A DNA stretch of 64,000 nucleotides from Methanomicrobiales archaeon (lineage in GTDB: Archaea > Halobacteriota > Methanomicrobia > Methanomicrobiales > Methanospirillaceae), in contig JAAYCY010000030.1 in NCBI GenBank assembly GCA_012729535.1, positions 1 to 64,000 of the forward strand. The letters are read 5' to 3'. The notes below the pieces were generated by a model, which had not been told where the DNA came from, made no database searches, and saw nothing but the letters and a program-made list of their open reading frames with translations. Below are positions 23,761 to 26,231 of the stretch, piece by piece (the stretch's first letter is position 1; every line of letters begins with the position of its first letter). The translations under genes and the position numbers were made by a program.

Positions 23761-25965
23761 TCAGACCTGAACCGTTGATTTGATAGTACTTTGTGACTGG
23801 TGAGCAGGATCCTTAACCGGAACATTGATCCGTTTACCGTCCCACTCTGAAAACTGGTGAAGACAAACAGTCAGGTCACGGGTAAATGCAAAGTATCCTA
23901 TCTGAGTATTTCTGCATAATTTCATGGCCATATCCATAAGTCCACGAGGATCAGGTCTTGCTTCTCCAAGCCATATATGAAAAATGTTTCCTCCATCAAC
24001 AATTGGGAAGAAGACATGCTCTATCTCAGCCCGCTGTGCAAGGGTGACATCTGCCCCGGGAGCAACATGAGTTCCATTGGTATAGTATATGGGAAGGTCA
24101 CGAGTTACACCCAGGCGGGATAAGGCAATATCAAGATTTCCCTTGATAACCCGCTTTGCATCCTCATGAAATTCATGACGTAAAAGATCCGCTACCGCAA
24201 ACCGCTGTCCGGTTGTCTCGGCAGGAGTCCTGGCAAGAGCAATGGTCATTCCGTGTTTTTTTGTAAGTTCCCTGCTGTATATTTCCATCTCGGTCATTGA
24301 CCAGACCGCTAGTCGGAAAGCCTCTTCTGATTCATGGAGTTGATGGCCTGTAAAGTGTTGAACCATTTCATTCAGACCTACGATTCCAATGGTATACACG
24401 AGACCTTCAAAATCGACGGCTAAGGCTCCTCTTTCTCCGGTTTTCGGATCACGGGGACGCTGCATCGCAAAAGGCATCCGGTTACTCTTCTTGATAAGCT
24501 CCATCCACCGCAGTTTTATTTTAAATACCTCAACAGCAGTGTCCATCATGGAACGGAGTTCTGCAAACAGACGTTCCTCATCACCATGTGCCTTGTAAGA
24601 TGCCCGGGGGCAATTGAGTGATACCACACCCCAGGAACCCATGGAAAAGTGCATTCCATCTTCAAACATCAGTTTTTTATCAAAATCTATGTCCTGGTCT
24701 GCCATGGTGGAAAACTGGTAGGCACAACACTGGTAGCAGGAGATACCTTCACCAGCCCCCCGGTATTCGGGTAGCTGGTTATCGTAATATGGTGTTCCGA
24801 ACTTGGATGCAAGTTCAAAAGTGAGTAGATAGAGGTCTTCATAGGTTGGAAGGTCCGGATGATGTGCATTAAATTCTTCATCCTCATACATGAAATCAGG
24901 TTCAATACTGATTTCCGGTTTTGGAAAATTAAACGGCTTGCCCCAGTAGTCTCCTTCCAGCATAACTTCCATGAGAGATTTAAAGAGGAGACGGACTTCC
25001 CGTTCATATTCACCATATGTCTGATGCGGAGCATCAGAACCGTTCCAGACTTTTCCTTTATAAACACAGGGTTTGTCTTTCCAAAGTTTTGGCACACCGG
25101 GTGAGAGTTGCACAGATGAAAAGACGAGCTGACCTCCTCGTGCCACCATCATCTGTGTCATCTCGTAGACAAACATCTGCATGAGTTGTTTCATCTCTTC
25201 ATATGGTATCCCTGAAAAGTACGGAGCAAGGAATGTCAGAAAATTATAATATCCCTGCCCACCGGCAAAATTTGTCTGGGCACTTCCGAGAGCTTTTACC
25301 GCATGAAGGACGGCTACTTCTGCACGTTTTGCAGGTCCAGCTACTGATGCCTTTGTCCCGTTTCCATCAGGCATGAGCCCGTAGTAAAAAAAATATCTCA
25401 GGTCCCAGTCCTGGCAGAATGGCCGTGTACCAAAGTACTCAAGATCATGAATATGAATATCCCCGCAGAGGTGCCGGTCTGCAAGATGGGGAGGGAGCTG
25501 GAGAAGGTATTGCTCTTTGCTTATCTTGTCAGCCTTCTTTTTATGGGATGTCTCAGCATTCTCCTGCAGGTTAGCATTGTCATTCTTCTCAAACCCCCTA
25601 CCCACATCAATCTGGTGTGCATCATAAACCGGAGTGCCTACCCTGGTGCAAACATTCCGCCATTGAATCCTTCCCCGCTCTATCAGGATGATATTTAATA
25701 TTTCCCTGATCAACGGACCTGATAATGAACGAAGATGTAGTTTTCTAATCCGTTCTTCGACTTCCCGTGCAATCTCCTGCGCAGTTTGTTCATCAGCACC
25801 TTCATACCCGTAAAAAACCTCTACTAACCGGGTTTCATTTAGAATCTGTTTTACGATTCTGTCCCGGTCCCAGTCCAGAATATGCCCGTCGCTGGTTCTG
25901 ACCGGAGGCATGGACGGAATAGCAATACCGTCAAGGGTTGTCTGGCGTGTTATGCCTGGCACCAC
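23761..25965 (-). CDS. nrdD: anaerobic (class III) ribonucleoside-triphosphate reductase, C-terminus atypical
   Basis: Large subunit for anaerobic deoxyribonucleotide synthesis. An ATP-cone (about residues 20-105) precedes the ten-stranded barrel. Family segments are clear (GQGYYNFLTFLAPYFSG, GGQLVFSS, RGAGEGISCYQCCAY with candidate catalytic cysteines, NTQIGYFAFTRDLTVC). In ordinary NrdD the last segment is followed by a four-Cys zinc site and the RVxGY glycyl-radical motif. Here only about 37 residues follow, with neither motif, and no frame downstream supplies them. The GTG start has an AGGTGATG ribosome site overlapping the stop of the redoxin gene. No nrdG activase gene is in the window. 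Activity is therefore doubtful as encoded. Confidence 0.9.
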   Translation of the reverse strand: MVPGITRQTTLDGIAIPSMPPVRTSDGHILDWDRDRIVKQILNETRLVEVFYGYEGADEQTAQEIAREVEERIRKLHLRSLSGPLIREILNIILIERGRIQWRNVCTRVGTPVYDAHQIDVGRGFEKNDNANLQENAETSHKKKADKISKEQYLLQLPPHLADRHLCGDIHIHDLEYFGTRPFCQDWDLRYFFYYGLMPDGNGTKASVAGPAKRAEVAVLHAVKALGSAQTNFAGGQGYYNFLTFLAPYFSGIPYEEMKQLMQMFVYEMTQMMVARGGQLVFSSVQLSPGVPKLWKDKPCVYKGKVWNGSDAPHQTYGEYEREVRLLFKSLMEVMLEGDYWGKPFNFPKPEISIEPDFMYEDEEFNAHHPDLPTYEDLYLLTFELASKFGTPYYDNQLPEYRGAGEGISCYQCCAYQFSTMADQDIDFDKKLMFEDGMHFSMGSWGVVSLNCPRASYKAHGDEERLFAELRSMMDTAVEVFKIKLRWMELIKKSNRMPFAMQRPRDPKTGERGALAVDFEGLVYTIGIVGLNEMVQHFTGHQLHESEEAFRLAVWSMTEMEIYSRELTKKHGMTIALARTPAETTGQRFAVADLLRHEFHEDAKRVIKGNLDIALSRLGVTRDLPIYYTNGTHVAPGADVTLAQRAEIEHVFFPIVDGGNIFHIWLGEARPDPRGLMDMAMKLCRNTQIGYFAFTRDLTVCLHQFSEWDGKRINVPVKDPAHQSQSTIKSTVQV

Positions 25966-25970
25966 ATCAC

Positions 25971-26231
25971 CTAACAGAGTGTCAGAACGGCTTCTTCATT
26001 CACCTGGTCTCCAGTAAAAAGATCCTTTGACGTAAGGAATTTTTTACCAGACTGAAGCACAGGTGCTTCCTGAACGAATACTCCATTCATCCTGAGTTCA
26101 GTAAGTGCTTTCGCAGAAGACATATCCACAATGGTGTATGTAATCTGTCGATTTAAGAGAAATTCCTTTAGTATTTCACAACGTGGACAAAATTCCAGAG
26201 TGTATACGATAATGCCTGCCCCTTCAGCCAT
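25971..26231 (-). CDS. glutaredoxin/NrdH-like redoxin
   Basis: Small thiol-disulfide carrier, 86 residues from MAEGAGIIVYTLEF. The active-site motif is CPRC in a thioredoxin fold, followed by a cis-proline segment (EAPVLQSGKKFL). The start at 26231 has GTGAT at good spacing; longer in-frame starts look non-conserved. It sits immediately upstream of nrdD. Published work on methanogen class III reductases describes a subgroup (NrdD2) reduced by an NrdH-type redoxin rather than by formate. The pairing here suggests the same electron route. Confidence 0.85.
   Translation of the reverse strand: MAEGAGIIVYTLEFCPRCEILKEFLLNRQITYTIVDMSSAKALTELRMNGVFVQEAPVLQSGKKFLTSKDLFTGDQVNEEAVLTLC

Follow-up and report, generated by a model that had tools for sequence, protein, structure and literature searches.

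How a class III ribonucleotide reductase (RNR) could operate without a glycyl radical is the question raised by an nrdD gene in a 64,000-nucleotide stretch of Methanospirillum DNA (the window; positions 1 to 64,000 of contig JAAYCY010000030.1, assembly GCA_012729535.1; order Methanomicrobiales, genome completeness 96.8%). The initial annotation had noted that the encoded NrdD stops short of the zinc site and the glycyl-radical motif, expected that such an enzyme should not turn over, and proposed that the gene was a recent casualty, that a separate small protein supplied the radical, or that a divergent subgroup was involved. Very probably, judging from the sequences, the window gene encodes the catalytic-barrel half of a two-polypeptide class III RNR, the other half being a 120-amino-acid (aa) zinc-rich protein that carries the glycyl radical domain (GRD). 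The expected lack of turnover is therefore wrong once this second gene is counted.

Against the NrdD profile TIGR02487, the window protein (the body) scored 482.8 bits (cut-off, 326), but the match covered only profile positions 1 to 531 of 581; likewise, PF13597 was matched only at positions 1 to 513 of 562. All of the top 36 PDB matches that Foldseek returned for its predicted fold were class III RNRs, and profile and fold alike are those of an NrdD catalytic core. The active-site cysteines are common to the split bodies and their fused relatives. Cys184 is the probable active-site strand-A cysteine, an assignment made from family knowledge, while the finger-loop motif (SCYQCC), with Cys410, Cys413, and Cys414, is the probable site of the thiyl radical.

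The body runs to NTQIGYFAFTRDLTVC, after which 33 further residues follow. In the alignment with relatives, the split bodies share this end point, whereas the fused enzymes continue into the zinc site and GRD, confirming that the chain stops at the boundary between core and GRD. About 37 unrelated residues had originally been counted after DLTVC; a replacement tail is indeed present, but it comprises residues 702 to 734 and its start is not unrelated, as across 23 aligned split bodies L702 never varies and E707 hardly does (LxQFxE), the remainder being variable. No zinc site or RVxGY motif was found downstream of the body, and in none of the split members were these located on the same chain.

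To locate the missing segment, the whole genome was searched with PF13597. The sole other match (C20:7624-7788, profile positions 503 to 562) lay within an open reading frame (ORF) of 120 aa on contig C20; no GRD was found near the body on contig C16, and the genome contained no second complete NrdD. Together the two proteins tile TIGR02487 almost exactly, with positions 1 to 531 matched by the body and 533 to 581 (of 581) by the small protein. The latter contains a zinc motif and a glycyl radical motif of the usual kind, CPxCGxxxCPxCG and SRVTGYLQDVSGWNAGKQQELKDR, and its last 45 residues (SRVTGYLxDVxGWNxGKxQELKDR) are almost as in fused NrdD. Its N-terminal ~65 residues hold extra cysteine pairs (CxxC...CPxCG and CPLDxxxCxH) in an extension that the fused relatives lack. 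The length of 120 aa was constant in 32 of 32 aligned sequences, with 44 invariant columns that included R92, T94, G95, and Y96. The proposal of a separate small radical protein is thus strongly supported, since the gene found supplies almost exactly the part of the profile that the body lacks and co-occurs with the body.

Among 41 genomes from the genus, family, and order of the window, 39 carried the body and 38 of these a separate GRD; the lone genome with a body but without a GRD (G013) is 73% complete. Both halves were also present in 7 of 7 further members of the order in a phylum survey, bringing the totals to a GRD in 45 of 46 genomes with the body, and the split was found in all six Methanomicrobiales families sampled. 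G150 (99% complete) has neither half and has kept a PF02867-type RNR. For NrdDs from the same phylum but outside the order, the complete matches among those listed reach profile position 560 to 562, i.e., they are fused. From a collection of named genomes, 80 of the 252 GRD loci found were kept, and all 80 were stand-alone ORFs with SRVTGY; no NrdD body was present within these loci. Where the title gives a lower taxon, all are Methanomicrobiales (Methanospirillum, Methanoregula, Methanoculleus, Methanofollis, Methanogenium, Methanolinea, and others), and a few are titled only "Euryarchaeota archaeon." The suggestion of a divergent subgroup holds only in that the split defines this order.

A decaying or mis-sequenced nrdD was a natural reading of a truncation seen in one assembly. 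However, 46 genomes from six families share the identical end point, dN/dS for the body is around 0.03 (0.02 to 0.04), and the body is the sole RNR of the genome and of several others; these results refute both a recent casualty and a sequencing error that hides a longer frame. Values for the GRD were 0.02 to 0.08, and both genes are under strong purifying selection. Many relatives have another RNR that makes the body dispensable, but the genome of the window does not; it is among the 8 of 32 genomes of at least 90% completeness without a PF02867-type RNR. As these near-complete genomes have no other RNR, the split pair must work.

In the body tree, 32 split sequences formed one group with 100/100 support beside a fused Methanosarcina-like group. 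Since the data do not fix the root, one fission at the base of Methanomicrobiales is the simplest reading of the tree rather than a proven one. Two further observations concern NrdD within the order. G025 encodes an extra 569-aa fused NrdD (L061; G025:C1:590703-592373) of lower score and different type beside its split pair. Body ORFs of 886 to 1,727 aa occur in L062 to L066 (G024, G025, G027, G028, and G029) and also in G033, G034, G114, and G123; in these the profile is broken at ~53 to 60 and/or 263, which suggests inteins at conserved sites.

Ligation of the two products by a split intein, or trans-splicing of their RNAs, would yield an ordinary one-chain NrdD. Body ORFs with lengths from 900 aa to more than 1,700 aa in several members of the order, suggestive of inteins within the body, lend this some plausibility, as does the interruption of phage nrdD by introns, e.g., in Enterococcus phage EF1. 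However, no intein domain from Pfam or NCBIfam was detected in either half, neither the 33-aa body tail nor the Cys-rich ribbon at the GRD N terminus is long enough to be half of a split intein, the GRD carries a complete four-Cys site of its own and keeps a constant 120 aa, and the two genes lie far apart in most genomes. Such rejoining is accordingly considered very unlikely.

The GRD gene sits in a conserved cluster in the order tiaS, deoxyhypusine synthase, pyrF, GRD, cbiZ/zinc finger, replication factor A (RPA), and a further gene; near the GRD in the 80 named loci, pyrF was present in 78, cbiZ in 75, and RPA in 70. This location with pyrF, cbiZ, and RPA rather than nrdD, together with the weak resemblance of the extra N-terminal ribbon to Spt4-type zinc ribbons, would fit a body that works without a glycyl radical, its radical coming from another system, and a small protein that is a zinc-ribbon factor unrelated to it, such as one belonging to the neighboring RPA/replication operon. 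This is highly improbable given that the C-terminal 45 residues so closely follow fused NrdD and that both halves were lost together in G150. By association only, neighbors for pyrimidine synthesis and single-stranded-DNA binding are consistent with a protein that helps to supply DNA precursors. The cbiZ gene (adenosylcobinamide amidohydrolase; L002:587-1492) is a conserved neighbor that includes a fused small Cys-rich domain and overlaps the GRD gene at its end; B12 salvage may be linked to the choice of RNR.

Several points weigh against a two-polypeptide enzyme. The genes are usually unlinked. The predicted model of the body is only moderate in quality, and AlphaFold modeled the free GRD poorly (pLDDT, 68, with values below 50 in the radical loop), a fold search giving only nonsignificant zinc-ribbon-like matches. 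Given its extra Cys sites, the small protein could also have an additional role.

Further probable components of such an enzyme are encoded in the genome. The initial pairing of NrdD with an NrdH-like redoxin stands, although matches of this CPRC protein to the glutaredoxin/NrdH profiles are weak and below cut-off. Most split bodies and several fused, Methanosarcina-like NrdDs have a CPxC redoxin as neighbor, which is probably the reductant. A search for nrdG identified an NrdG2 activase (TIGR02495, 149.6 bits; cut-off, 131.15). The coordinates of all features are given in Table 1.

Table 1. Coordinates of the two RNR halves, associated genes, and viral GRD genes
Feature	Location	Strand	Basis or remark
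nrdD body (catalytic core without GRD)	23761..25965	minus	734 aa, GTG start; profile and fold matches
C-terminal replacement tail (residues 702-734) and stop codon	23761..23862	minus	Split versus fused NrdD alignment; fused enzymes run on into zinc/GRD here
Cys184 codon, in RPFCQDWDL	25414..25416	minus	Invariant in 23 split bodies and in split/fused comparison
Cys410, Cys413, and Cys414 codons, finger-loop CYQCC	24724..24738	minus	Invariant in split bodies and fused relatives
NrdH/glutaredoxin-like redoxin, CPRC, directly upstream of nrdD body	25971..26231	minus	86 aa; weak TIGR02196/TIGR02194 matches
GRD gene, 120 aa	contig C20, L002:1489-1851	minus	Outside window; PF13597 and TIGR02487 matches
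NrdG2 activase	G000:C12:45258-45824		TIGR02495
Viral GRD genes	L200:3736-4071, L201:3986-4300, L202:2377-2727, L203:3860-4330, L204:3884-4303, L205/L206:3908-4261		IMG/VR contigs

A mechanism can be envisaged in which the radical-SAM activase NrdG2 abstracts a hydrogen from Gly95 of the small protein, whose RVTGY loop would insert into the barrel of the body. The radical would then pass from the docked GRD to a finger-loop cysteine, and the active site would be re-reduced by the redoxin. In the fused NrdD of P. copri, the GRD (residues 676 to 739) is a mobile rigid body beside the core (residues 123 to 671) (PMC11226230), and the natural split point here corresponds to this junction. Once cleaved by O2, the small subunit could be exchanged while the 734-aa body is kept, much as YfiD does for pyruvate formate-lyase; such replacement could be cheap because the cleavable subunit is small and separate. 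Control by docking may be a second advantage. A broader proposal, which we regard as tentative and a little short of an even chance, is that the stable radical has been placed on a dissociable, exchangeable subunit in a class I-like logic of one catalytic and one radical subunit, so that activation, replacement after O2 damage, and perhaps control by dATP act via docking, and that viruses of these archaea supply a radical subunit themselves, with which they drive or deregulate the host body.

Stand-alone GRD genes were identified on IMG/VR contigs L200 to L206, with identical GRD proteins in L205 and L206. Their neighbors included genes for the terminase large subunit (L202, L204, and L205), a baseplate protein (L203), and recombination/helicase functions (L200). 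No NrdD body was detected in the whole viral records (up to 64 kb), in which the GRD was found, although these records may be fragments. The GRD gene tree that included viruses and fused domains is built from a gene too short to resolve most placements; the sole supported one for a virus groups L200 with the G025 GRD (99/95), which points to acquisition of the L200 gene from a host. In a phage collection no close GRD was found, with distant matches only, in bacterial-phage NrdD (the one checked is intron split).

The class III RNR reviews and papers examined place the GRD at the C terminus of the chain that also holds the active site. No published description of a split NrdD was found, including in a Methanomicrobiales comparative genome paper; the literature on methanogen and thioredoxin-type class III RNRs was incompletely covered, and an earlier mention is possible. 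An order-wide natural fission implies that the radical domain is a separable subunit, making docking, activation, and radical transfer open to study with two purified proteins. It also corrects how an essential enzyme of a major group of methanogens is interpreted, and it suggests that viruses target this enzyme. Split enzymes may be missed or misread in RNR censuses that use length or a glycyl motif as a filter.

Among the closest known systems are the fused class III RNRs of the Methanosarcina lineage, which we take to be of the NrdD3 type. Their bodies can be aligned end to end with the split bodies, of which they are the sister or parent group in the tree, and they have the same cysteines and, in several cases, the same adjacent redoxin. 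However, their zinc site and GRD form the C terminus of the same chain, whereas here these are on a separate protein with extra N-terminal Cys clusters. RNRs encoded by more than one open frame include the split class II NrdJa/NrdJb of Pseudomonas, which belongs to a different class and uses a B12 radical (cited in PMC9669993), and the intron-split phage nrdD. The nrdD pieces of Enterococcus phage EF1 lie within a single operon on either side of an HNH intron, whereas the genes here are unlinked and no intron is involved.

YfiD/GrcA and Y06I of phage T4, the autonomous glycyl radical cofactors of pyruvate formate-lyase (PFL), resemble the present protein as small stand-alone GRD copies that also occur in viruses (PMC8683613; viral loci above). 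They are the only spare parts validated, although others may exist, and good activation of YfiD depends on its being bound to its PFL target (PMC8683613). The split NrdD bears on the question, raised by the YfiD literature, of whether trans-acting glycyl radical proteins serve other glycyl radical enzymes. The domain of YfiD/GrcA is of the PFL type (PF01228), which has no match in the genome of the window, whereas the GRD here is of the NrdD type; as the PFL-type domain is absent, PFL was ruled out as its partner. YfiD serves to repair a cleaved enzyme with a GRD of its own, whereas the partner body here lacks one across the order, with G025 having an extra fused NrdD. By analogy with YfiD/GrcA, the small protein is most likely an obligate GRD acting in trans rather than a repair part.
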